Assembly: GCF_006539345.1 (NCBI RefSeq)
Contig: NZ_BJMV01000008.1
Coordinates: forward strand, 1-64,000
Reading direction: 5' to 3'
Origin: Acetobacter peroxydans
GTDB taxonomy: Bacteria > Pseudomonadota > Alphaproteobacteria > Acetobacterales > Acetobacteraceae
DNA: 64,000 nucleotides
The notes beneath the pieces were generated by a model that was not told the DNA's origin, ran no database searches, and saw only the letters and a program-made list of their open reading frames with translations. The position numbers and the translations under genes are program-made. Shown here in pieces: positions 23,709 to 60,698 of this stretch (positions are counted from its first letter, which is position 1; each line of letters begins with the position of its first letter).

Positions 23709-25289
23709 TCAGGGCAGAAACCGCGTTGCCTGCCTGAGAGCCTCCGCCACTTCATCAATCATCGGCACGAAAGAGCGCTCCTTGGCGCGGAACAGCCGCA
23801 TGGTCGGATACCATGCTGTGGTCTCGCCACTATCGAGCCAGCGCCAGCAGGCATCCTGACGGCTCATGACCCAGACAGGACAGGCCAACCCGCCGGCAAG
23901 ATGGGCGGGGGAAGAATCAACCGTAATCAGCAGGTCAAGATTTTTCACAAGAGCCGCCGTATCGTCCATGCTCCGAATCTGATCCATGGGGTCGATCAGT
24001 GCAAAACCACACTGAGCGATTTCCTCACGCTTCCTGCCATATTGCAGGCTTATGAAAGTAGCGTCGGGCCGGGATGCGATAATAGGCGCCATAGCCTGCA
24101 ATGTTGTGGAACGACGGTCGTCCATGGCGGTGCCACGAGCGCTCTGGCGGCACTCACCTGCCCAGACCAATCCGATACGCGGCCGCCCTGCTGGCAGGCG
24201 CGCGCCCCACGCGGCAACGGCGGCTTCATCTGCCACCAGATACGGAATAACGGGAGCCAGCACACTGGCTTCGCACCGATCCAGCCCCAATGCGTACGGC
24301 AGATTCATGATCAGGTCGGCATAATCAAACCCACCACCAAACTGCGCACGCACCGCCATGCCCGCAATATCTACCACGTTAACGGCAGGGAAAGACCGGC
24401 CTATCAGCCCCAGCAAGGTCGCTGGCACCGCAAGCGTAATGATGGCCCCTTTTTCCATAAGCGCCGTAACAAAGCGGACAAACTGGAGCGTGTCTCCCAA
24501 GCCATGATCATGGTACAGCAGCACCGAGCGTCCGCGCACGTCGACCTGTGGTGTCAGGGAAGGCAGTTTTTTAAACCATGCCTCCGCGTGCAGGCCATCG
24601 GGCTTCTGGGCGTGTAAGGCCCAACCTCGCCCCAGGTGCCCGGCCTTGAGCAGAGCACAGCCGTAGGAAGCCTGCATACGCTTGTTACCAGGCGCCATAC
24701 GCAGGGCGGCCTCGTAATAAGGCAGTGATTCCGCAGAGCGGTTCAGATAGGTCAGCGCACAGCCCATATTACTGAGCAGAGCAGCGGACGTGCAGTGATC
24801 GGCAATCGCCCCCGCAAGCACCTGTCGCGCTTCTTCAAGAAGCCCCGCCTGCAGGAGCGCGGCGGAAAGATGTTCGATCAGCGATACACGCTGGGCAGGG
24901 TAACGCGCCAACAACGCCCCGAAGCGTTCGCTGCCTTCAGCAAGCTGGCCCGCACAGATTAGCGTATAGGCATAGGTCTGCTGAGCCTGCACATTGTCTG
25001 GCACATGTTCAAGAGCCTCACGCAGCAGGGCAAGCGCCGTGTCGTACCGCACGGTATGGTGGGCAATAAGCATGGCGGCAGTAATAGTCAGGGCGACATT
25101 ACCCGGCCGCCGCGCAAGCTGGTCCATAATAAGACCGACGGCTTCCGCCTCGCGCCCTTCAAGAAAAAAGGTTTTGACGCGCGCAGGTATCAGCCCCGCC
25201 GCGCGGATCAGGTCGCTATCGGTAATGGAAGAGGAACGCGCCTGCCCCCCCATGGAAGAAACGGTTCCGTTCAGGGGGACATCACTCAT
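23709..25289 (-). CDS. TPR-glycosyltransferase fusion, FlmG-like (paralogue 1)
   Basis: This is a probable flagellin glycosyltransferase. Residues about 30-235 are TPR-like helical repeats (RYDTALALLREALEHVPDN and RSAESLPYYEAALRMAPGNK). The C-terminal half resembles GT-B heptosyltransferases (LLYHDHGLGDTLQFVRF, IGLVWAGECRQSARG, LLITVDSSPAHLAGGLA). This architecture matches Caulobacter FlmG, where the TPR part binds flagellin and the C-terminal part transfers a nonulosonic sugar. A second copy lies at 45.1-46.7 kb with the same motifs and a shared DACWRW segment. The location among flg genes supports the role. Donor sugar and actual acceptor are unknown. Confidence 0.75.
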   Translation of the reverse strand: MSDVPLNGTVSSMGGQARSSSITDSDLIRAAGLIPARVKTFFLEGREAEAVGLIMDQLARRPGNVALTITAAMLIAHHTVRYDTALALLREALEHVPDNVQAQQTYAYTLICAGQLAEGSERFGALLARYPAQRVSLIEHLSAALLQAGLLEEARQVLAGAIADHCTSAALLSNMGCALTYLNRSAESLPYYEAALRMAPGNKRMQASYGCALLKAGHLGRGWALHAQKPDGLHAEAWFKKLPSLTPQVDVRGRSVLLYHDHGLGDTLQFVRFVTALMEKGAIITLAVPATLLGLIGRSFPAVNVVDIAGMAVRAQFGGGFDYADLIMNLPYALGLDRCEASVLAPVIPYLVADEAAVAAWGARLPAGRPRIGLVWAGECRQSARGTAMDDRRSTTLQAMAPIIASRPDATFISLQYGRKREEIAQCGFALIDPMDQIRSMDDTAALVKNLDLLITVDSSPAHLAGGLACPVWVMSRQDACWRWLDSGETTAWYPTMRLFRAKERSFVPMIDEVAEALRQATRFLP

Positions 25290-32098: not shown

Positions 32099-32902
32099 TC
32101 AGCTTCCTGTCGTCGTGCCGCTCGAACTGGAAGAAGAGCTGCCTGCGCTGCTGGAGGAACTGCTACTCGTCTTGCTGGACGAAACATTGGTAACATTCGC
32201 CATCGGAATGCTGGCGCTACCGAGCTGCACCAGCATGTCCGCACTGCCTTTCTGGATACCGGTAATGGTGCCGGTGACCGAGAAAGGTACATCCGACGTG
32301 GTGCCGGTCGAGTCAACCGTTTTGACGGACACGCTGTATCCTCCGTCAGAAAGCTTGTTTCCGTTGTTGTCGGTACCATCCCACGTCCAGGTATTGGTGC
32401 CCGTGCTGGCTGTCGACACCACATCCTTGACAATGGTGCCGGAGGAATTGGAAACCGCAATCGCCACCGTCTCGCCAGATGTGCCGGTGAAGCTGAGCGA
32501 TGCAGAGCTGTTCTGCAGAGGCAGGGTGGTACTGGTAGCGGTAATGGTATCGCCCACCAGAGCTGTATCCGTGCTGAGCTGGCTATCCTGATTGAGCGAA
32601 ATCAGGGAGTCCAGCTTGCTGTTGGTTGAGACCTGCTGTTCCACGCTCGCGAACTGCACCAGTTCCGACGTAAAGGTATCAGAACTCATCGGGCTGCTGG
32701 GGTCCTGATTCTGAAGCTGCGTTGTCAACAACGTCAGAAAGGACGTGTAATTATTAGCCAACGAGTTCAGGGACGACACTGAAGAGGAAGAGCTTGAGCT
32801 ACTGCTGCTGGGCGACGAATTGGCACTCGCCTTGGCCGATGCTTCAGCCGCCTGAAGCGCCTTATATTCGTTCGCAATACTTGTGGACGATGTTGTTGTC
32901 AT
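32099..32902 (-). CDS. flgD: Flagellar hook capping protein FlgD
   Basis: FlgD caps the growing hook and promotes FlgE assembly. The FlgD core is clear: NYTSFLTLLTTQLQNQDPSS, FTSELVQFASVEQQVSTNSK and the C-terminal Ig-like part with TWTWDGTDNNGNKLSDGGY. Two poly-Ser tracts, near residue 30-42 and at the extreme C-terminus, are low-complexity additions. The length is 267 residues. It is the last gene of the minus-strand operon; fliK ends 32 bases upstream. Confidence 0.93.
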   Translation of the reverse strand: MTTTSSTSIANEYKALQAAEASAKASANSSPSSSSSSSSSSVSSLNSLANNYTSFLTLLTTQLQNQDPSSPMSSDTFTSELVQFASVEQQVSTNSKLDSLISLNQDSQLSTDTALVGDTITATSTTLPLQNSSASLSFTGTSGETVAIAVSNSSGTIVKDVVSTASTGTNTWTWDGTDNNGNKLSDGGYSVSVKTVDSTGTTSDVPFSVTGTITGIQKGSADMLVQLGSASIPMANVTNVSSSKTSSSSSSSAGSSSSSSSGTTTGS

Positions 32903-36981: not shown

Positions 36982-37734
36982 TCAGCCTGCCTTATGGTGG
37001 GCCAGACCAATCCGCCGGGACGGATCACCCCGGAAAGAAGCCCGCCCCGCATGGGTCAGAGAAATGGACGTATCCAGCCAGACCTCACCGCCAATGGCGC
37101 TCCATCGGCGGCAGAACGTGAAATCCTCGCTCAGATAGGTGCCGGTTTCAGGATCGATGCTGCCATCGAACAGGGCATGATATTCCGTCTCGCCCCTGCT
37201 GCCCGCCGCATCGATCCGGCGATAGGCGGTTTCAGGGTAGCTTTTGATCAACATGCCAATCGCCTTCCGGCTGATCATCATGAAACCCGTTCCCGCGTAC
37301 CGCGTTTTCAGCAGCGGCCCCTTTTCCCAGGTCTGGTGCATTTCATCGGTCTCACCCACATACCGGAGCGACGCTGTTTCATGCCCTTCGCCGCGCAACA
37401 CGTTTTCCTGCGTGTCCTTGTCCCAGAAGTGCTGCTTGATCGGGTACATGCCAGCAACCACGTCCTTGTCCGCAGCCAGCAGACGGGCGGGCGCTTCCGC
37501 GGGAAAACCGATATCCGCGTCAATGAACAGAATGTGGGAGGCATCGGAACGGGTGTAAAATTGATGAAGCAGCGTGTTTCTGGCACGACTGATCATCGCG
37601 TCGTCACCAAGAAGAGACAGTGTCATGGGCGTCTGCATGATACTGGTGCAGGCGATGACGGATTCCATGTATTCCTGCGTGACCATCCCCCCGTAACACG
37701 GGGTAGCAATAAAAATCTTCGCGGTCTGTTGCAT
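36982..37734 (-). CDS. GT2-like glycosyltransferase in the motility operon
   Basis: This is a 250-residue cytoplasmic glycosyltransferase-like protein. The N-terminal KIFIATPCYGGMVTQEYMES resembles the nucleotide-binding start of GT-A enzymes, and HILFIDADIGFPAEA holds a DxD metal motif (D-A-D). TYLSEDFTFCRRW could contain the catalytic ED. No membrane segment is present. AGGA lies six bases from the ATG. It sits 18 bases before motB and after fliJ in the same orientation, so it is co-transcribed with motor genes. Acceptor and sugar are unknown; flagellin or another axial protein is a contextual guess. Confidence 0.7.
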   Translation of the reverse strand: MQQTAKIFIATPCYGGMVTQEYMESVIACTSIMQTPMTLSLLGDDAMISRARNTLLHQFYTRSDASHILFIDADIGFPAEAPARLLAADKDVVAGMYPIKQHFWDKDTQENVLRGEGHETASLRYVGETDEMHQTWEKGPLLKTRYAGTGFMMISRKAIGMLIKSYPETAYRRIDAAGSRGETEYHALFDGSIDPETGTYLSEDFTFCRRWSAIGGEVWLDTSISLTHAGRASFRGDPSRRIGLAHHKAG

Positions 37735-37902: not shown

Positions 37903-38334
37903 TCACCCTATCCCGAACACTCCTCTTACCCGACGCGACAGATCATCCACCTCGTTCTGCTCCCTGCGGGCCTCTTTCTCACGCTCTTCTTCCCGCCACC
38001 GTGCCAGTACGGCCTCAGCAGCCTTCAGGGCGGCATTTGCCTGCGTCAGACCTGCACGCGCCTGATCCGATGCCTGCTGCGCTTCCAGCACAAGCCGGTG
38101 CGCCCGCTCAATGGCGTCCCGCCCGACGGGCAACCAGGTGAGGAAGTCCTCCATACTGGTGTGTCCGGCACTGACTTCGAACTGTTCGCTTTGTAGTTGC
38201 TGCCGACTATGGGCCAGCCTCACCTCGGCAGCACGCTCATGAGCCAGCACGCGCGCCAATTCGGCACGCGCCTGATCCACTTCCGTCTTGCGCAGACGGA
38301 TCAGAGACTGGAGTGCACGAGCCCGGGGGTTCAC
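37903..38334 (-). CDS. fliJ: Flagellar export chaperone FliJ
   Basis: FliJ is a coiled-coil protein that forms the central stalk of the FliI ATPase and helps couple it to the FlhA gate. The 143-residue protein is helical throughout, Ala/Arg/Glu-rich (SLIRLRKTEVDQARAELARV and ARWREEEREKEARREQNEVD), as expected. Its ATG overlaps the fliI stop by four bases, so translation is coupled. Sequence alone is weak for this family, but the position after fliI makes the call reliable. Confidence 0.88.
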   Translation of the reverse strand: MNPRARALQSLIRLRKTEVDQARAELARVLAHERAAEVRLAHSRQQLQSEQFEVSAGHTSMEDFLTWLPVGRDAIERAHRLVLEAQQASDQARAGLTQANAALKAAEAVLARWREEEREKEARREQNEVDDLSRRVRGVFGIG

Positions 38335-39788
38335 CCTGACACCTCGTCAACAGACAACGCACCCCGCAGCGCATCAAAACTTTCCGCCAGAGTGGCCTTT
38401 TCTCCCCGCTGCTGCTTCAGCACGCCTTCAATCGCTGGGGCTACGCGGATGGCTCTGTCAACCTGCGGATCATTGCCGGGGCGATAGGCGCCAAGGCGCA
38501 CCATGTCCTGCATTTCCTCCCAGGTTGAAAGATCACGCCGCGCTTCCAGCACAAGCGCATTCTCTTCTGGCGCGTTGCAGCCCGGCACCGTGCGGGAGAG
38601 AGAACGCAGCACGTTGATAGCCGGGTAGCGCCCCGATTCCGCAATCCGGCGCTCCATGACAACGTGCCCGTCCAGAATACCACGCACGGCATCCGTCACG
38701 GGCTCATTATGGTCGTCGCCTTCCACCAACACCGAGAACATGGCCGTCATCTGCCCGGCCTTACCTTCTGCATCCATCAGGCCGGGGCCTGCGCGTTCAA
38801 GCAGCCTCGGCAACTCAGCAAACACGCTTGGCGGATACCCACGGGTCGCAGGCGGCTCCCCTGAAGACAGACCAATTTCACGCAGGGCCTGACAAAAGCG
38901 GGTCACACTATCCATAAGCATCAGAACGGATTTGCCCTGATCACGGAAATACTCCGCCGCCGCCATGGCCGCGTAGGCCGCCTCACGCCGCATCAGAGGC
39001 GAGGTATCGGATGTCGCCACCACCACAACGGACTTGGCCAGCCCCTCCGGCCCCAGATCATCTTCAACAAATTCGCGCACTTCGCGGCCACGTTCACCCA
39101 CAAGGGCAATCACCGCGACATCACACGCGGTATTCCGCGCGAGCATACCCATAAGGGTGGATTTCCCCACACCCGAACCTGCAAACAGGCCCAGACGTTG
39201 CCCCTCACGGCAGGTGGCAAACAGGTTCAACGCCCGCACACCCAGATCAATCCTTGGCCCAAGACGCGCACGCAAAGCCGCCTCCGGCGGGGGGGCATGG
39301 AGTTTCTGCACCACACCGCCGGGCGCAAGCGGCCCCTTGCCGTCCATGGGGCGGCCCATAGGGTCCACGACCCGCCCTTTCCAGGATTCGTTAACCAGCA
39401 GAGCACCCCCTGCCCGCCGCCGCCGCTCCTCTGGGCCGAACATCTGGAACGTGGCCCGACATCCCGAACCAATCCCCTCGAGCGAGCCAAATGGCATGGC
39501 AATGGCAATATCGCCCTGAAAGGCTACGATTTCCGCTTCAGTCTCGCGCCCGTCCAACCCGAGAACGCGCACGCGATCACCCACGCCCGTAAAATCACGC
39601 AGGCCGCTCAGAGAGATGGAAAGTCCTGAAAGCCCCGTAACCCGGCCCTCAAGCACGCCGATAGGCACCTCGTCATGCTTCTGCCCCACCGCATGGCGGA
39701 TCGCGTCGAGCATATCGGGCACGCCGACAGCCTGGGCGGCTGCATCTGACTGCCCGGCGCCTTCGCCCTTCATCGCGCCAGGCTCCAT
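38331..39788 (-). CDS. fliI: Flagellar export ATPase FliI
   Basis: FliI is the hexameric ATPase of flagellar type III export, related to the F1 beta subunit. Walker A is GLFAGSGVGKSTLMGML near residue 204, followed by ALVGERGREVREFVEDDLG, and Walker B is VLMLMDSVTRFCQALREIGL. A second ATG five codons in has TGGAG nine bases before it, so the start may be there. The length is 485 residues. fliH, the usual regulator, is not adjacent. Downstream overlap with fliJ defines a fliIJ unit. Confidence 0.96.
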   Translation of the reverse strand: MEPGAMKGEGAGQSDAAAQAVGVPDMLDAIRHAVGQKHDEVPIGVLEGRVTGLSGLSISLSGLRDFTGVGDRVRVLGLDGRETEAEIVAFQGDIAIAMPFGSLEGIGSGCRATFQMFGPEERRRRAGGALLVNESWKGRVVDPMGRPMDGKGPLAPGGVVQKLHAPPPEAALRARLGPRIDLGVRALNLFATCREGQRLGLFAGSGVGKSTLMGMLARNTACDVAVIALVGERGREVREFVEDDLGPEGLAKSVVVVATSDTSPLMRREAAYAAMAAAEYFRDQGKSVLMLMDSVTRFCQALREIGLSSGEPPATRGYPPSVFAELPRLLERAGPGLMDAEGKAGQMTAMFSVLVEGDDHNEPVTDAVRGILDGHVVMERRIAESGRYPAINVLRSLSRTVPGCNAPEENALVLEARRDLSTWEEMQDMVRLGAYRPGNDPQVDRAIRVAPAIEGVLKQQRGEKATLAESFDALRGALSVDEVSG

Positions 39789-39828: not shown

Positions 39829-41580
39829 TTAGAACAGGGCGGAATAGAGGCTGCTTGAACCACTGGATGAACCGCTGACATCAAACAGAGCGACAATCCC
39901 TTCACTGCTGTTGCTGCCACCGAACAGATCCATGGTGCTCAGCGCATCGCTGGAAGTCTGCGGATTGATCTGTAGCATCGCCAGATACTGCTCCGCATAT
40001 TTTTTGATCCCGTCAGCCGTGGTGAACTGCGAAAAATCGATCTTGCCGGTCAGCATCTGCACCTGCTGGCTATAATCGAGCGCACCAATCTGATCGGGAT
40101 TGTACCCCAGAACCGTTTCCACCACTTTGAGCAGCGTTGAGTCTGACATAACCTGAGCCAGCGTAGTCACACCGCTGATCTTGCGAGTAAAATACAGCGC
40201 ATTACCCACACCATCTTTCTGGTTGGCCTTGCTCTGCTCGTACTGCGTCTGCTCAAAATCATCGACCAGCGTTGTCATATCCACACCGTCGTAACTGGTG
40301 GTGGCGCTGGGATTGGTCAGCGTGGATTCCGTTGTTTTCTGGCTGGTGGACAGGGTGGGCGACTCCAGATTGATCGAATAGGTCGTGCCACCCATAACCG
40401 CCGTCAGGGCTGGAACCTTGGTCGTGGACAGACCATTGACCGAATAGACATTGCCCAAGGCGTCAAAAGAAACCGAGTAAACGGATGAACTGGTGACAGA
40501 AGAGGAATCGTAGGGATTAACCACCGAGACGCTCCAAGTCGAATTAGCCGTCTGCGTCCACTTCACGGACAGGTAATTGCGGGCGGATGCGGGAATGTTA
40601 TCGGCGTCATCAAGCGCCTGATCGGGGTCGAGCGGCGAGGATAGATAGGACTGACCGGTGCCCGTGGTTGAGCCCACCACAACAGGACTCATGGTCAGGG
40701 ACGTACCTGAACCACTCATGCTTTGCGCCTGAGAGACGCTGGCCTTCTGGGTGTCGCTGGTCGCCATGACAGTACCGCTCTTGGTGCTGTCCACTGTGCC
40801 CAGAACAAGCTTGATATTCTGAGTTTTGCCGTCCCCTCCTGTCAGAGTAACAGGAAAAAACGCTGTCAGATCCTTGCTCGATGAATTTACGACGCTGTCA
40901 CCGGAAACCGCGTTGGACACAGAGGCAATGGAACCGTCGGTATTGAAAGTCACATTGTAACTGTTCGTACCCACAGCACCCTTGCCATCCGCATCATAGG
41001 CACTGACATTCCACGAAAGCGGATTGGTAGTGCTTCGTGTCCATTGCAGGGCTACCTGCGTGGCATTCCCCGACGCATCATAGGTGGTCACCCCGGCCGT
41101 TGTATAACTGTCCTGCGTGCTGCTGGAAGACGGCAGGATTGCGTTCAAGGTCAGTTCCGTCGTTTTCGTCGGAGCCGCTGTTACGCTCACCTTGCTATCG
41201 CTCGTCGTGAACGGCGAAACCGTGGAGACGCCATCATGCTCGCTCCACACGGCAAACGCCTTGGCGAAAGCCTGCCAGCTCGTATTCTTGGATTTAGCTG
41301 CCAACGAGGTGGAGGAAGACGGATCCTGCGTGAGCAGATCCTTAATAACCGCCGTCTGACCTGACAGCGAACTAAGACCATAAGCCCCCAGCACAACCTG
41401 AAGCACCGAGTAATTCTTCAGCAGACCATCGACGGTCGTGATAGACCCAGCATCTTTCTCGAAGGTTGCGATTTCGTTCGCCGTGGCGGCATCGGTTTTG
41501 GCGTAGGTCTGCGCAGCCGTAACCTCGTCCTTCTGGGCGATGAGAAAGCTCGTAATAGGGGAGACAGTGCTGATGGCCAT
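39829..41580 (-). CDS. DUF1217 flagellar protein with two inserted hook-like (FlgE D2) domains
   Basis: This 583-residue protein has no Cys. Residues about 1-120 (TSFLIAQKDEVTAAQTYAKT, ITTVDGLLKNYSVLQVVLGA) and about 430-540 (NALYFTRKISGVTTLAQVMS, LLKVVETVLGYNPDQIGALD) match DUF1217, a domain known from rhizobial flagellar loci. Between them lie two tandem beta-rich units of about 140 residues. These resemble the D2 units of the FlgE at 54-55.7 kb: DSYTTAGVTTYDASGNATQV here against QTYTTAPTTVYDSSGTAHQI there, both followed by QWT/VWT, then YDADG. I infer an exported axial or hook-associated protein. It heads the fliI-fliJ-GT-motB-motA-fliK-flgD block, downstream of a perfect CtrA-type site. 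Confidence 0.75.
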   Translation of the reverse strand: MAISTVSPITSFLIAQKDEVTAAQTYAKTDAATANEIATFEKDAGSITTVDGLLKNYSVLQVVLGAYGLSSLSGQTAVIKDLLTQDPSSSTSLAAKSKNTSWQAFAKAFAVWSEHDGVSTVSPFTTSDSKVSVTAAPTKTTELTLNAILPSSSSTQDSYTTAGVTTYDASGNATQVALQWTRSTTNPLSWNVSAYDADGKGAVGTNSYNVTFNTDGSIASVSNAVSGDSVVNSSSKDLTAFFPVTLTGGDGKTQNIKLVLGTVDSTKSGTVMATSDTQKASVSQAQSMSGSGTSLTMSPVVVGSTTGTGQSYLSSPLDPDQALDDADNIPASARNYLSVKWTQTANSTWSVSVVNPYDSSSVTSSSVYSVSFDALGNVYSVNGLSTTKVPALTAVMGGTTYSINLESPTLSTSQKTTESTLTNPSATTSYDGVDMTTLVDDFEQTQYEQSKANQKDGVGNALYFTRKISGVTTLAQVMSDSTLLKVVETVLGYNPDQIGALDYSQQVQMLTGKIDFSQFTTADGIKKYAEQYLAMLQINPQTSSDALSTMDLFGGSNSSEGIVALFDVSGSSSGSSSLYSALF

Positions 41581-41662
41581 CCATCCAATCCTTTATCCCT
41601 GATCGCGACCGCAGACTGAACGCCCGGCTGCTGCTTAATCCTTAAGGCGACTAACATACGCC

Positions 41663-41682
41663 GGTTAACAAGAGGTTAACCA
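41663..41682. promoter_or_regulatory. CtrA-consensus palindrome before the DUF1217-fliI operon
   Basis: GGTTAAC-AAGAG-GTTAACC is a perfect inverted repeat and equals TTAA-N7-TTAAC (41665-41680), the CtrA binding consensus. It lies about 85-100 bases upstream of the DUF1217 gene start, in a 172-base gap with no other feature. The CtrA-like regulator encoded at 31.2 kb is the obvious candidate ligand; a canonical CtrA elsewhere is the alternative. Confidence 0.7.
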
Positions 41683-41752
41683 ACTTCCCCCTTATCCCGC
41701 TCTGACCTCGGAAAATCATAGGGAAGAAGGACGCTCGCGCGCGCACTTTTCC

Positions 41753-42646
41753 TCAGGCAGGAACCACCATAAGCCGCCGCGCCAGCAGGTCGGCATTGCA
41801 CCGCGCAGCGCCACCACGCACAGATGGCGAATAGCCGGCATAAGTTAATGCCAGACCACAGGCGGCAGCCGTAATGATGCTGCCGATCCGCCCTGCCTGA
41901 TCGAGCTTGGTGGCGATCATCCGCTCCGCTCCGAGCTGTCGGTACGCGGCCGCGGTATCTGCCGCCTCCTCCGCATCCATGCCCGCAGGCACCACCACGA
42001 CAGGAGAACAGCCAGTCTGTTCGATCACCTCACGTATGGGCGCCAGACCGCCAGACGTGTAAACACCGCCCTCGGGCAGGTCGAGCAGCACCGGCTGCGC
42101 ACCCCCCTTATGCGCCATGATAGCCCGCGCCACTTCAGCCGTTTCCGCACGAAATACCGGCACGCCGTAAGGCTTGAGCCATGCCGTCAGACGCGCGGCC
42201 CCTTCAGGCGCGGCCTCACACGCAATCACGAGGGGGGCTGCATCCACATGCCGTTCGCGCAGAACGTGACTAACCGCCATTCTGGCCAGCGCCAGCGTCT
42301 GCCCCCCACCAGATGGCCCACAAAAAGCCAGCGGCTTACCTTTCTCCAGTGCCAATGGTGCAAATGTCAGCAAGCGGCCAAGGGCGGCAGGCAAATCCCC
42401 GTCTGCCAGCACGGCCGCCAAGGGAGCAGGCAACACGTGCCAGGCCAGCACGTCACGCAAGGTCATGCCATCAGGAAGCGCCTCCATGGTGAAAGGCCGC
42501 CTTCCAACCCAACTCGGCGCCACCGCTGCGGCCTCGCCGGCCCGCACGGCATCCCGCCGACCGGAGGCACGCCGCCCACCCCCCGCCTTCCGGGTACGAA
42601 AGCGCCCCTGCGCAAGCTCGGTATGAGACAGAGCCTTATCCCTCAT
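41753..42646 (-). CDS. flhF: FlhF-like SRP-type GTPase with defective P-loop
   Basis: FlhF is an SRP-family GTPase that sets flagellar position or number. Here the G-domain is recognisable but degenerate. The P-loop is GPSGGGQT (110-117), with Gln116 where the invariant Lys of GxxGxGKT should be. The DTAGR switch is replaced by LLDLPEGG, while ATKLDQAGRIGSIITAA keeps the TKLD guanine-specificity motif and the closing segment. At 297 residues it is shorter than typical FlhF (about 380-450), with an Arg/Gly-rich N-terminus. It directly follows flhA (16 bases), the usual neighbour. GTP hydrolysis is unlikely; it may act as a scaffold. Confidence 0.78.
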   Translation of the reverse strand: MRDKALSHTELAQGRFRTRKAGGGRRASGRRDAVRAGEAAAVAPSWVGRRPFTMEALPDGMTLRDVLAWHVLPAPLAAVLADGDLPAALGRLLTFAPLALEKGKPLAFCGPSGGGQTLALARMAVSHVLRERHVDAAPLVIACEAAPEGAARLTAWLKPYGVPVFRAETAEVARAIMAHKGGAQPVLLDLPEGGVYTSGGLAPIREVIEQTGCSPVVVVPAGMDAEEAADTAAAYRQLGAERMIATKLDQAGRIGSIITAAACGLALTYAGYSPSVRGGAARCNADLLARRLMVVPA

Positions 42647-45133: not shown

Positions 45134-46696
45134 ATGACGGCACAACCGGACGCAGAAACCGCTTCCGTTACCGAACAGGAAATAGAGGATCTGCGGGCGC
45201 ATCCAACGCCGCAGAGCCTGTACGACATTGGTGTAAAACTTTTCCTGGAACAGCGGGGCACGGAAGCTTTTCAGCTCATCCTCGATATTGTCGCCAAGCA
45301 CCTTGACGATACGATGATGCTCGCCGCTGCCACCAGCCTGCTGTGGGAATATACCGCCCGGCACGATGTTGTCGTGATTCTCATGCGTCATATCGTCCAG
45401 CGCGAGCCCTACAACCTGCCCGCAAAGCTGTCGCTCGCAAACGCCCTCATCACCACCGGCGCAGAGGCCGAAGGCTATGGCCTGTTCTCCACGCTGATCG
45501 AGCAGAACCCCACCCGCCGCGCCGAACTGTGCGAAAATCTCTCCAAGGTGCTGCTGGATACCGGCCGCCTTGATGAAGCCATCCGAATTCTGGAATTCTG
45601 GAGCCAGACGGGGGAGGAAACCTTCGCCCTCGTGAACAACATGGCCTGCGCCCTCCAGAATGTCGGCCGCTCACGCGAAGCCCTGCCGTGGTTCCGCAAG
45701 GCCGTGGAACTGGCGGAAAACAAGAAACGCCCCGCCTTCGGTTACGCTGTTTCCCAGATCAAGGCCGGGGATTTCAAGGAAGGCTGGCACAACTACGCCC
45801 AGCGCGACCCGATCGTGGATAACGAAAACTGGTGGTTCGTGCTTCTGCCGCGGCTGCGTCAGGGCGATGATGTGGCTGGCAAGCGGGTCATTCTCTATCA
45901 GGAGCAGGGCTTTGGCGACACACTCCAGTTCATCCGCTCCGCCACATGGCTGATCGACGCCGGAGCGGACGTTACCATCGCCGTGCCCCGCCCTCTGGTG
46001 CGCCTGCTGACCCAGTCCTTCCCCCGCGCAACGGTCAAGGAAATCCGTAAGTTCGCTGAAAATCGGGAGGAAGGCTACGACTTCTCGGCCCCCATTCCTG
46101 ACCTGCCCTACATTGTGGGGGTTGTGTCCGACGAGACCATTCCGGCCAATATTCCCTACCTGCGCGCCGACCCGGCCGACATCGAAAAATTCGCCGCCCT
46201 TCTGCCGCCTGGTCGGCCTCGCGTCGGGCTGGTCTGGGCGGGGGCGCAGCGTATCAAGGCTGAATTTGTGCTCACCGACCGACGGCGCTCGAGCAATCTG
46301 CAGGACATGGCCTCAGCCCTGACGCCGGTTGACGCAACCCTCGTCAACCTTCAGTTCGGCCCGCCGCATCAGCAGATTCTGGCATGGACCGGCCAGACCA
46401 TTGCCGATCCCATGCGCCATGTGAACGATATGGCAGATACGGCTGCCATCATGGAAAATCTGGACCTGATCATCTCGGTGGATACGTCGCCCCTGCATCT
46501 GGCAGGCGGGCTTGGCCGCCCGACGTGGCTTGTCAGCCGCAGGGATGCCTGCTGGCGGTGGCGCGATGAGGGCGATACCACGCCGTGGTATCCTGGAATG
46601 CGGATTTTCCGGGCTAAGGAACTGTCATTCGTTCCTACGTGGAAGGAAGTCGGGGCGGCCCTGCATGAATGGGCCGCAAACTGGAAAGCTCCCTGA
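45134..46696 (+). CDS. TPR-glycosyltransferase fusion, FlmG-like (paralogue 2)
   Basis: This 520-residue protein is a paralogue of the one at 23.7-25.3 kb. TPR-like repeats fill about residues 25-225 (SREALPWFRKAVELAENKKR); the C-terminal half is GT-B/heptosyltransferase-like (RVILYQEQGFGDTLQFIRSA, PRVGLVWAGAQRIK, LDLIISVDTSPLHLAGGLGR, SRRDACWRW). The layout equals Caulobacter FlmG, which glycosylates flagellin. AGGA lies ten bases before the ATG. It diverges from flhA and converges on the lytic transglycosylase gene. Two such enzymes could add different sugars or act on different axial proteins. Confidence 0.78.
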   Translation: MTAQPDAETASVTEQEIEDLRAHPTPQSLYDIGVKLFLEQRGTEAFQLILDIVAKHLDDTMMLAAATSLLWEYTARHDVVVILMRHIVQREPYNLPAKLSLANALITTGAEAEGYGLFSTLIEQNPTRRAELCENLSKVLLDTGRLDEAIRILEFWSQTGEETFALVNNMACALQNVGRSREALPWFRKAVELAENKKRPAFGYAVSQIKAGDFKEGWHNYAQRDPIVDNENWWFVLLPRLRQGDDVAGKRVILYQEQGFGDTLQFIRSATWLIDAGADVTIAVPRPLVRLLTQSFPRATVKEIRKFAENREEGYDFSAPIPDLPYIVGVVSDETIPANIPYLRADPADIEKFAALLPPGRPRVGLVWAGAQRIKAEFVLTDRRRSSNLQDMASALTPVDATLVNLQFGPPHQQILAWTGQTIADPMRHVNDMADTAAIMENLDLIISVDTSPLHLAGGLGRPTWLVSRRDACWRWRDEGDTTPWYPGMRIFRAKELSFVPTWKEVGAALHEWAANWKAP

Positions 46697-49029: not shown

Positions 49030-49350
49030 ATGAGTTCAGCCATTCTCTCGGCGCTGGCCAATAACCAGCAGGCCCTTACCTCGCAGTCCAACCTGACACC
49101 TGCCCAGCTTGAACAGGCGCGGAAGGCAGCGGTAGACTTTGAAGGTGTGACAATCGGCGAAATGCTCCAGCCCATGTTCGATACAGTCGATCTGTCCGAT
49201 TCGATGTTCGGCGGTGGTGCGGGCGAAAAACAGTTCCGCGACCTTCAAGTGCAGGAAATGGGCAAGCAGATCGCCAATAACGGTGGCTTAGGCATTGCCA
49301 ACACCGTGTATCGCCAGTTGCTGGCCATGCAGGAACAGGCCCAGTCATGA
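49030..49350 (+). CDS. flgJ: Rod-binding protein FlgJ, N-terminal domain only
   Basis: FlgJ helps cap and assemble the rod. This 106-residue product contains only the rod-binding domain (RKAAVDFEGVTIGEMLQPMF, GEKQFRDLQVQEMGKQIANN, GLGIANTVYRQLLAMQ). The C-terminal muramidase domain of enterobacterial FlgJ is absent, as in many alphaproteobacteria. It starts three bases after flgI and its stop overlaps the next gene by four bases. The divergent SLT enzyme nearby could provide the missing wall-cutting activity. Confidence 0.92.
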   Translation: MSSAILSALANNQQALTSQSNLTPAQLEQARKAAVDFEGVTIGEMLQPMFDTVDLSDSMFGGGAGEKQFRDLQVQEMGKQIANNGGLGIANTVYRQLLAMQEQAQS

Positions 49351-49775
49351 GCGCCGCCCTGAGCAAGCAGGAAGGGCTGATCCTGCGGAGCTTTCAGAAA
49401 GTGTGCCGGGTGCTGGAAAAGGAAAACGATTTTCTGGCCGAGCTGAAGTTTCAGAAAATCACTGACCTGCTCCCTTCCAAGCAGAAGGAAATCGCGGCTC
49501 TGGAAGCCGCACTGGTCGAACGTGCAAAAATGCTGGCCGCAAGCGGGCAGGAACATACCCCCCTGCCCCCGGATGTGGAAAAGGCCGCCCAGGATTTCAA
49601 AGCCATGATCGCCACCAATCAGGTAAGGCTTCAACAGGCTATCGAAACCCAGAACAGCGTCATTCAGCTTATTCTTGAAGCCGCGCAGGAAAGCGTTACG
49701 GGTTATGCCGCATCCGGCCACTATGTGCAGGACCACCGGGCGCAGGGCGCCATGACCCTGCGCAGCGACGTATAA
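49347..49775 (+). CDS. flgN: FlgN-like flagellar export chaperone
   Basis: This is a helical 142-residue cytoplasmic protein with heptad-like sequence (RVLEKENDFLAELKFQKITD and LPSKQKEIAALEAALVERAK), consistent with FlgN, the chaperone for FlgK and FlgL. It overlaps flgJ in an ATGA junction, so it belongs to the flgI-flgJ operon. The family is poorly conserved in sequence, and the assignment rests on pattern and context; another small export chaperone is possible. Confidence 0.65.
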   Translation: MSAALSKQEGLILRSFQKVCRVLEKENDFLAELKFQKITDLLPSKQKEIAALEAALVERAKMLAASGQEHTPLPPDVEKAAQDFKAMIATNQVRLQQAIETQNSVIQLILEAAQESVTGYAASGHYVQDHRAQGAMTLRSDV

Positions 49776-54054: not shown

Positions 54055-55752
54055 TTACTGGATCATCGCGATAGTGGCCTGAAGCATCGTATTGGCCGAG
54101 GTCACCACCTTGGTGTTGGCCGTGTATGCTTGCTGCGCCACGATCAGGGAAGACAGATCCTTCGTCAGATCGGTCGTTGAGGACTCAACATAACCGACCG
54201 AAAGCGTGCCCGTACCGTTTTGACCGGAAACGCCGATCTGAGCGTTCCCGGAGTTCGTTGTGGCGACGTAAGCCTGCCCGTCAACGCCCTCAAGCCCGTT
54301 AACATTCGCGAAGTTGGCCAGAGCCACCTTGCCGATCAACTGCGTGCCCGTGCTGAACTTCGCCATGACAGAACCGTCGCTGGTGATTTCCGCACCCTCG
54401 TAGGTGCCGGTCGCAATGCTGTCGCTGGTTACTGCGGTCGTATCGGTATAAGGCGAAGAACTGCCGAGCTTGACTGAGCTGGTCGTCAGATTCAGCGTCT
54501 GGGTTGTACCGCTGGAATCGGTGAACGAAATGCTGCCGGTGCTTGAACCGTTAATGGTGTCAATCGTGCCGTCAGCCTTGAACGTCACCTGCGCCGTCGT
54601 GGAATCAGAGGTGGCGCTTGAATACGGATCCACCAGCTTGACGGTCCAGGTCTGCTCGCTGTTTACATTGGCTGCCGTCGTCGGATTTTTCGTCCAGACA
54701 GCCGAGACATAGCTACCATCGGACAGCTTCAGCGGCGTGGTCGTATAAGTATCGTTCGTGCCGGTCTGGGCACCGATATTCACCGCCCCGCCCCCCGAAT
54801 CCATGGCCAGGCTGCCTCCGCTCACCACCAGGCTCGTACCCTGCGATGTGCTCGGCGTGCCGCTTTTCGCGGTCGCCACCACCGTACCGCTCGTGGAACC
54901 GATGCTACCCAGATCAAGATTGATGGTCTGCGCCACGCCATTGTACGTCGCGGTAATCGGAATTTCAGCCGCGGTGCCCGTCGTATTGGCAACCACCGCA
55001 CCGGTGGCGTCCGTGACCGAAGTCATCGCGCCGGTGCTGCTGTCGAACGTGACAATATAAGGCGAAGGAGACGCATCACTGATAGCGCCGCCGCCATCGG
55101 CATCATACGCCTGCACAGTCCATTTGGAGGTGTCCGACGTGCTCTGCGTCCACACCAGACCGATTTGATGCGCGGTGCCACTGGAATCGTAAACGGTGGT
55201 CGGTGCCGTAGTGTAGGTCTGGTTGGTGCCAGTTGCCGTGCCCACCGTTGAGGTCGATGTCAGGGTTGTGGTTTCTGTCGGCTTGAACGTCACGTTGGAG
55301 ACATTGAGCTGCGTCAGCGTCGTGCCCAGCGTGCCGGTGGACGGGTCCACCATATACCCCTCAAGGTAATAGCCGCTGGTATTGACGAGATAACCGGCCT
55401 TGTTCTCATAAACTTCGCCATTGCGGGTGTAGTAAGTCTGACCGCCGGATGTCGTTCCCTTGGAAACGACAAAAAGCCCGTTGCCTGAAATCGACGTTGC
55501 AAGAGCATCCGTGCTGGTCGAGGACGTGCCCTGATTGTCGACGTGCTGGACAGTCACCGCCGCAACAGAGTCGGAGATATCGGCCGACGCGCTGTTACCG
55601 CCCGCACCCGCCACAAAATCCTGAAAGGCCGTTGTGGTCGCCTTGTAGCCCACGGTCTGGCTGTTGGCGATGTTGTTACTGAGATTGGTAAATGCGGTCG
55701 ACTGTGCGTTGATACCGCTTACAGCCGTTGAAAGGGCATTGAAAACCGACAT
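54055..55752 (-). CDS. flgE: Flagellar hook protein FlgE with two tandem D2-like units
   Basis: FlgE builds the universal-joint hook. The N-terminus (LSTAVSGINAQSTAFTNLSN) and the C-terminus (SLIVAQQAYTANTKVVTSAN) match hook proteins. At 565 residues it is larger than enteric FlgE (about 400). The centre holds two tandem beta-rich units (about 160-310 and 325-440), each with a YTT-x-P start, a VWT strand, a WTV strand and a TxNL strand, for example AYDADGGGAISD in the first. These units reappear in the DUF1217 protein. AGGGA lies before the ATG. It stands alone, with long gaps on both sides. Confidence 0.94.
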   Translation of the reverse strand: MSVFNALSTAVSGINAQSTAFTNLSNNIANSQTVGYKATTTAFQDFVAGAGGNSASADISDSVAAVTVQHVDNQGTSSTSTDALATSISGNGLFVVSKGTTSGGQTYYTRNGEVYENKAGYLVNTSGYYLEGYMVDPSTGTLGTTLTQLNVSNVTFKPTETTTLTSTSTVGTATGTNQTYTTAPTTVYDSSGTAHQIGLVWTQSTSDTSKWTVQAYDADGGGAISDASPSPYIVTFDSSTGAMTSVTDATGAVVANTTGTAAEIPITATYNGVAQTINLDLGSIGSTSGTVVATAKSGTPSTSQGTSLVVSGGSLAMDSGGGAVNIGAQTGTNDTYTTTPLKLSDGSYVSAVWTKNPTTAANVNSEQTWTVKLVDPYSSATSDSTTAQVTFKADGTIDTINGSSTGSISFTDSSGTTQTLNLTTSSVKLGSSSPYTDTTAVTSDSIATGTYEGAEITSDGSVMAKFSTGTQLIGKVALANFANVNGLEGVDGQAYVATTNSGNAQIGVSGQNGTGTLSVGYVESSTTDLTKDLSSLIVAQQAYTANTKVVTSANTMLQATIAMIQ

Positions 55753-59688: not shown

Positions 59689-59711
59689 CCGATTTGGCAT
59701 GGAGAATTTTC

Positions 59712-60698
59712 GTGACTCTTTCAATTAACACCAACGCCTCCGCACTGGTCGCCATCGAAACCCTGGACGCAACCCAGACCTCGCTGAGCAACACCGAAAA
59801 CGTCGTTTCGACCGGTAAGAAGGTCAACAGCGCTGCCGACAACGCCGCTGCTTACGCCATCTCCCAGCAGCTGAGCGGTCAGAGCTCCGGTCTGAGCGCC
59901 GTGAACTCGGGCCTGACCTTCGCTGCCCAGGTTGTTAACACGACGACGACTGCCGTCAGCAGCATCCTGAGCGACCTGAAGTCCATCCAGAGCCTGATCA
60001 ACACTCTGACGAACAATCAGACTAGCTCGAGCAGCATCAGCGACACCAGCGACTCCATCACGCAGACGCTGAACGCCATCAACGTTGTCGCCCGTAACGC
60101 CACGCTGAACGGCGTGAACCTGCTGGTGAATGCGGCTTCCGACGGCGTTGGTATTCAGGGTACCAGCCTGACCTACCTGACCAGCCTTGGTGGTGACACG
60201 ACCGTCATCAGCGGCCTGCACTCCGATATCTCTGGCGCTATGACCTCCGGCGCTCTGGCGTCTTCCTTCACCTACGCAGCTGGCAGCGGCTCCAGCCTGA
60301 CGGACGCTCTGGGCCTGACCACCGGTCTGGCTTCCACCGATGCCGCCAGCGCCAACATCTTCGTGACGTCCGGCAACAGCCTGAACACCACGACGTTTGC
60401 TTCCGGCACGGCTGGCTCCACGGCTCAGCAGATGGTGGCCCTGATCGAACAGGCCATCACCGCGATGACCACGATCGCTTCCAAGCTGGGTTCCAACTCC
60501 ACCATTATCTCCAGCATGTCCAGCTTCGGCACCACGCTGTCTGACAACATCACTCAGGGCGTTGGCGCTCTGACCGATGCCGACATGTCCGCCGCCAGCG
60601 CTCAGCTGACCTCGCTGCAGACCAAGCAGTCTCTGGCCATCAAGTCGCTGACGATCGCGAACTCCCAGTCCCAGAGCATCCTGTCGCTCTTCCAGTAA
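59712..60698 (+). CDS. fliC: Flagellin
   Basis: This is the filament subunit. The 328-residue protein has the conserved D0/D1 ends: LSINTNASALVAIETL and VVSTGKKVNSAADNAAAYAI at the N-terminus, and LTSLQTKQSLAIKSLTIANS plus QSQSILSLFQ at the C-terminus. The variable centre is short and Ser/Thr-rich, which would offer O-glycosylation sites. The start is GTG with GGAG seven bases upstream; the codons before it (TTG) extend with no flagellin sequence. It is the only flagellin in the window. A strong terminator follows, and flaF lies next. Confidence 0.96.
   Translation: MTLSINTNASALVAIETLDATQTSLSNTENVVSTGKKVNSAADNAAAYAISQQLSGQSSGLSAVNSGLTFAAQVVNTTTTAVSSILSDLKSIQSLINTLTNNQTSSSSISDTSDSITQTLNAINVVARNATLNGVNLLVNAASDGVGIQGTSLTYLTSLGGDTTVISGLHSDISGAMTSGALASSFTYAAGSGSSLTDALGLTTGLASTDAASANIFVTSGNSLNTTTFASGTAGSTAQQMVALIEQAITAMTTIASKLGSNSTIISSMSSFGTTLSDNITQGVGALTDADMSAASAQLTSLQTKQSLAIKSLTIANSQSQSILSLFQ

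Follow-up and report, generated by a model that had tools for sequence, protein, structure and literature searches.

A DUF1217 protein with a hook domain between its halves

The window, a 64-kb stretch of Acetobacter peroxydans DNA, contains a genuine minus-strand ORF (39829..41580, stop codon counted in) that encodes a protein of 583 aa. Pfam matched DUF1217 (PF06748) over two stretches of this protein (E 9.6e-35; 120.4 bits against a cut-off of 22.9), bearing out the initial annotation of its ends, and FlgE_D2 (PF07559) at residues 152-288 (30.9 bits against a cut-off of 22.7). The N-terminal helical half of the DUF1217 core covers residues 1-120 (41221..41580, minus strand) and the C-terminal helical half residues 434-540 (39961..40281, minus strand), followed by a tail (residues 541-583; 39832..39960, minus strand) with pLDDT below 50 in the predicted structure. 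Between the halves lies an insert of 305 aa (residues 129-433; 40282..41196, minus strand), whose bounds were set by aligning the chimera with 12 plain DUF1217 relatives, all 12 of which show a gap at this place. The first insert unit (residues 152-288; 40717..41127, minus strand) is FlgE_D2 by both Pfam and predicted fold, and the second (residues 289-427; 40300..40716, minus strand) is homologous to the first and to unit 2 of this genome's own FlgE. What separates the halves of this DUF1217 protein is therefore the outer domain of the hook protein, made up of FlgE D2 and another D2-like unit. The protein had been described as interrupted; an insert is indeed present, but it sits between two helical halves and not inside one.

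In a Pfam scan of the chimera at E up to 1, DUF1217 and FlgE_D2 were the only families found. The D0/D1 families (Flg_bb_rod, FlgE/F/G D1 and Flg_bbr_C) gave no match, whereas all three are present in the organism's own FlgE. The NCBIfam FlgE model aligned to residues 132-303 with 40 bits, well below its cut-off of 365, as expected for a protein that holds a D2 fragment. The predicted core of the chimera has the fold of PDB 2o8s (AGR_C_984 of Agrobacterium tumefaciens, DUF1217, PF06748), which lacks the insert, while the chimera has 305 residues of hook D2 at the junction. Together with most of the family matches listed, 2o8s upholds the earlier statement that DUF1217 proteins exist without D2 units. 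No earlier description of a DUF1217/hook-D2 chimera was found in our literature searches.

The gene order near the chimera is flhA-flhF-DUF1217-fliI-fliJ-orf-motB-motA-fliK-flgD. The fliI gene (38331..39788, minus strand) follows directly downstream after a 40-nt gap, and the gene for an FlhF-like GTPase of the SRP54 type (41753..42646, minus strand) lies upstream across a gap of 172 nt. The hook cap gene flgD (32099..32902, minus strand) is on the strand of the chimera, and the flagellin gene (59694..60698, plus strand) does not adjoin it in this genome. The chimera had been said to head the operon with fliI, motAB, fliK and flgD. That it comes first is unproven: flhA and the flhF-like gene precede it on its strand, and a search of 41400-41900 for a sigma-70-like promoter gave none. 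All eight further D2 carriers with surroundings read (L083, L084, L167-L172) share the order flhA-(flhF)-DUF1217-fliI with the window.

Several other genes among the flagellar genes of the window deserve mention. A 250-aa gene product (36982-37734) has a weak likeness, below the Pfam cut-off, to Anp1 glycosyltransferases; in those Acetobacter-type loci that were read, this gene separates fliJ from motB. Large TPR proteins are encoded beside flagellar genes at 45134-46696 and 23709-25289; the C end of the former weakly matches glycosyltransferase-9, perhaps indicating a part in flagellin glycosylation. An FlgN-like chaperone, slightly below the Pfam cut-off, is encoded at 49347-49775 after a short flgJ.

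Relation of the insert to FlgE and history of the capture

The hook protein gene flgE (54055..55752, minus strand) encodes D0/D1 together with a two-unit D2 region like that of the insert, making FlgE a paralogue of the insert. By BLASTP, residues 155-436 of the chimera aligned with residues 176-457 of this FlgE at 37% identity (E 8e-28 without a low-complexity filter, E 1e-20 with SEG), and only the middle of the chimera aligned. The near-identical phrases that the initial annotation had quoted from the two proteins stand in register in this alignment, and its reading of the middle as two tandem FlgE-like units holds: compared with each other by hhalign, the two insert units gave a probability of 98.3, E 2e-14 and a score of 85.1; scores in 30 column-shuffle controls did not exceed 18.5. 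An explanation by chance or composition, in which both proteins would merely be Ser/Thr/Gly-rich beta proteins, can appeal to the Ser/Thr richness of both, yet it is refuted to a negligible probability by the shuffle control (a local score of 413 for the chimera middle against FlgE, where 1000 shuffles of the middle peak at 160), the SEG-filtered BLAST, the Pfam cut-off and the fold match.

A profile built from the 8 inserts and 13 FlgE D2 regions retrieved 6 distinct sequences from the PDB at E up to 0.01, all of them FlgE chains. The structure check that had been proposed for the middle region gave the same answer, the predicted fold of the insert being that of the solved FlgE D2 domains (PF07559; PDB 6ndt, 1wlg, 5az4). 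The alignment used for structure prediction contained 13 FlgE D2 rows, which may bias the model towards D2, and with a pTM of just 0.54 the placement of the domains is unsure. The D2 assignment does not hang on the predicted fold, since the sequence evidence is independent of the model. What separates the chimera from FlgE is the lack of D0/D1, which in FlgE build the hook tube.

A. suratthaniensis and A. papayae also have full-length chimeras, with 85% and 82% identity, respectively. Used as a query, the insert matched 34 of the 299 family genomes, in 8 of these inside a DUF1217 gene; the other matching frames, of those checked, were FlgE. The 8 genomes with complete chimeras are the organism's own and seven others, four from genus g101 and three from g58. 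FlgE_D2 was matched at E 0.01 or better in 8 of the 55 DUF1217 proteins scanned, and one DUF1217 protein of 1014 aa (genome G082) has four FlgE_D2 stretches.

In a tree of the 8 inserts and 15 two-unit FlgE regions (G082 and G125 were left out), the inserts form a single clade separate from the FlgE regions with a support of 99/97. A recent origin of the insert from this genome's own FlgE is ruled against by this clade and by the topology test, where it was weakly rejected (p-AU 0.031); the corresponding recent capture in g101 was very strongly rejected. On the best tree of the DUF1217 core (39 rows, 37 of them different), the D2 carriers do not group together and require four changes, but a single clade of D2 carriers is compatible with the data (p-AU 0.345). 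Among three Acetobacter species, dN/dS was 0.11-0.14 for the insert and 0.04-0.08 for the core ends, and dS was close to 1. A single capture probably took place in an ancestor shared by some of the acetic acid bacteria; the insert has since evolved under purifying selection and was multiplied in one genome. The capture from a hook protein is thus real on the evidence of sequence, Pfam and fold, but it happened long ago at the level of a lineage, was kept by selection at a junction prone to insertions, and did not draw on the FlgE of this genome.

Other modules at the junction

To describe the junction more widely, we examined 37 genomes, the organism's own and 36 of the family, the latter picked among the matches listed for a split match or a long frame. 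Junction inserts of at least 100 aa were found in at least 28 family genomes (28 of the 37 examined) from 11 genera. The module is D2 in the organism's own genome, g101 and g58. Judged from the letters, it is a beta-rich-looking segment of ~330-350 aa in g72, g87 and g65, a ~115-aa unit in one, two or three copies in g33, g52 and g92, and a helical-looking segment of ~490 aa in g118. In g111 it consists of ALTTAQ repeats (PF20080), matched in 3 of the 55 proteins scanned (L178:9020-10372, L195:7876-9237 and L202:7555-8844). The remaining nine genomes comprised six apparent upstream-frame artefacts, one gene broken by contig ends, one case of two plain genes and a near-complete tandem duplication (genome G101). 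A pair of tandem DUF1217 genes was also seen at L180:7710-12456, each with a probably helical insert of ~490 aa.

Lengthening by another route was observed within the genus. Six genomes (G004, G005, G013, G016, G020 and G022) have five DUF1217 matches in one frame of 717-724 aa, and the four of these proteins that were read whole (715-720 aa; L147, L148, L204 and L205; G016, G022, G013 and G020) consist of five N-halves and one C-half. These four share with the chimera the site before fliI and the C-half; they are extended by repeats of the N-half, whereas the chimera is extended by a captured domain. In other alphaproteobacterial families, DUF1217 occurs in frames of 834-981 aa (L154 of G038, L208, L209); in G038 it stands at the N end, and two genes adjoin.

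The place of the protein in the flagellum

DUF1217 follows the flagellum closely. FlgH was found in 16/16 DUF1217 carriers of the organism's own genus and was absent from 9/9 non-carriers. In the family it was present in 221 of the 228 DUF1217 genomes and absent from 7, while 24 FlgH genomes were without DUF1217; in the class it was present in 12/12. The number of DUF1217 genes tends to follow that of FlgH without being strict: DUF1217 genes lie on two contigs in six of the nine genomes that have no FliD and at least two FlgH matches, and two such genomes (G248 and G309) have three DUF1217 matches each, only some of them with a listed position, but G322 combines three FlgH matches with a single DUF1217 match, and G305 has two tandem DUF1217 genes with one FlgH match. 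A DUF1217 protein of function not known is entered in a B. ovis table, and a Liberibacter list includes DUF1217, in the portions of these sources available. We take S. meliloti SMc03023 to be a DUF1217 gene. In the available part of PMC2848241, SMc03023 is a flagellar-regulon gene of function not known.

The chimera has no Cys and a Ser+Thr fraction of 0.29 (0.25 and 0.22 for the core ends alone). In the window this fraction is 0.31-0.42 for FlgD, FlgE, FlgK, FlgL, flagellin and FliK and 0.08-0.13 for ten cytoplasmic proteins. Composition is only supportive of export, since FlgB, FlgF and FlgG reach just 0.14-0.19. At least one Cys occurs in 21 of 55 DUF1217 frames, in some cases within doubtful N-terminal extensions.

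Of the 30 best-scoring family loci, 20 have flagellin within ~1.5 kb of DUF1217, in 19 cases upstream and on the same strand; the same distance holds for 3 of 11 class loci. Among 57 labelled loci, picked by architecture, flagellin was seen in 16 and fliI directly downstream in 19; some neighborhoods read flgE-flgK-flgL-flagellin-flaF-DUF1217. The surroundings of many relatives thus point to the flagellin side; those in this genome and its near kin do not, as the chimera lies among flhA, fliI and motAB there. On balance we favor the filament side over the hook for the position of DUF1217.

Taken together, these observations suggest that the chimera is likely an exported structural part of the flagellum, on the filament side, with the captured hook module facing outward at the junction. 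The DUF1217 protein would leave the cell via the flagellar type III system and be built into every flagellum as a structural component, located towards the filament or hook-filament side and not in the hook tube. Its helical halves and terminal tails would dock or assemble, and the junction would face outward and accept bulky modules, different lineages hanging different domains there. The D2 module may contribute contacts on the hook-filament surface, or act simply as an outward spacer.

A bolder proposal, which we hold only tentatively and consider rather unlikely, is that DUF1217 is the unrecognised, non-homologous substitute for the filament cap FliD in alphaproteobacterial flagella, at about one per flagellar system. 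The helical core would then rest on the end of the filament, with the variable middle as the cap's outer plate and the junction as an open slot filled by hook D2 in acetic acid bacteria and by repeats or other modules in sister lineages. FliD, FlgK and FlgL have helical ends with outer domains between them. The chimera resembles them in this layout, in which helical ends enclose outer domains, but no sequence or profile likeness of the DUF1217 core to the three was found. For FliD, Pfam gave no match in the chimera, hhalign of the core gave a probability of at most 0.8 (an insensitive test), and an equally insensitive comparison of folds found no likeness. The head domains of FliD resemble domains of FlgK and flagellin, according to the available part of PMC5072837.

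The distribution of FliD speaks for such a substitution. FliD_C was found in 0/12 DUF1217 genomes of the class against 26/58 other FlgH-positive genomes (Fisher p 0.0025, phylogeny ignored), and FliD above the cut-off in 0/221 family genomes with DUF1217 and FlgH against 10/24 other FlgH genomes, for which the p value likewise ignores phylogeny. The organism's own genome has no FliD_C match, DUF1217 is placed after flagellin in many relatives, and the portions of the literature available report FliD as absent from Rhizobiaceae (PMC6913195) and fliD as not found in Brucella, where the sheath was suggested to help (PMC7410920; PMC3017070). B. ovis has the DUF1217 protein mentioned above. Against the proposal, the part of PMC8781033 at hand includes a table that enters a fliD gene for Brucella, and the 37 genes of a near-saturating A. 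fabrum motility screen (PMC9812332) include none called DUF1217 in the text available; that screen took strong non-swimmers, and four of the 37 genes were then without known function. In Azospirillum, FliD clusters with FlgK and FlgL (PMC12826043, in the excerpt available).

The exclusion within the family also has another explanation. In 9 of the 10 FliD genomes, FlgH is clearly weaker (E 1e-26 to 1e-40 against ~1e-50 in most others), and gene orders in the FliD genomes differ from those of DUF1217 loci, so that a second type of flagellum explains why FliD and DUF1217 do not meet. The tenth genome (G259, 87% complete) has two FlgH matches, the better of usual strength, and weaker FlgH is an imperfect marker, as G121 has it together with DUF1217 and G286 with neither FliD nor DUF1217. 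The ten Acetobacteraceae FliD genomes (L223, L224, L228-L236) probably have a differently derived flagellar system, which within genus g74 is partly an alternative. The class set (115 genomes, 70 with FlgH) further weakens the proposal, with 26 FliD_C genomes, 12 DUF1217 genomes, none with both and 32 with neither. Genomes with neither may possess another type of cap or divergent members of these families.

Placement on the hook side, with the D2 units packing on the FlgE D2 shell of the hook as a junction piece or coat, is conceivable but also unlikely. By predicted structure the insert is a true hook-shell domain, and the organism's own FlgE has the same two-unit form, but the chimera has no D0/D1, and in other genera unrelated modules stand in for D2. 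Moreover, G213 and G314 combine two-unit D2 in DUF1217 with a one-unit FlgE, as probably does G082, whose FlgE was read in part, whereas G018, G253 and G249 combine a two-unit FlgE with plain DUF1217. The roles first suggested for the chimera, a hook coat, a junction piece or a competitor of FlgE for FlgD, thus find no direct support, given the missing D0/D1 and the uncoupled two-unit forms of FlgE and DUF1217 across the genomes read.

Finally, a cytoplasmic export factor whose D2 imitates the substrate FlgE and so adjusts export, as in hook-to-filament switching, would fit the strand and order shared with fliI, fliJ, fliK and flgD here, but is made highly improbable by the chimera's composition, which is like that of exported proteins, by the flagellin near 20 of the 30 family loci and by the expansion of the protein with repeat modules of several kinds.

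The chimera shows clearly that a hook surface domain moved into an unrelated flagellar protein and was retained there, in a family whose junction takes up many different modules. The DUF1217 family, for its part, gains a setting, being bound to the flagellum and often adjoining flagellin. Transposon mutants are available for A. fabarum (PMC10269862). The setting makes it testable how filaments grow in those alphaproteobacteria that are reported to be without FliD.
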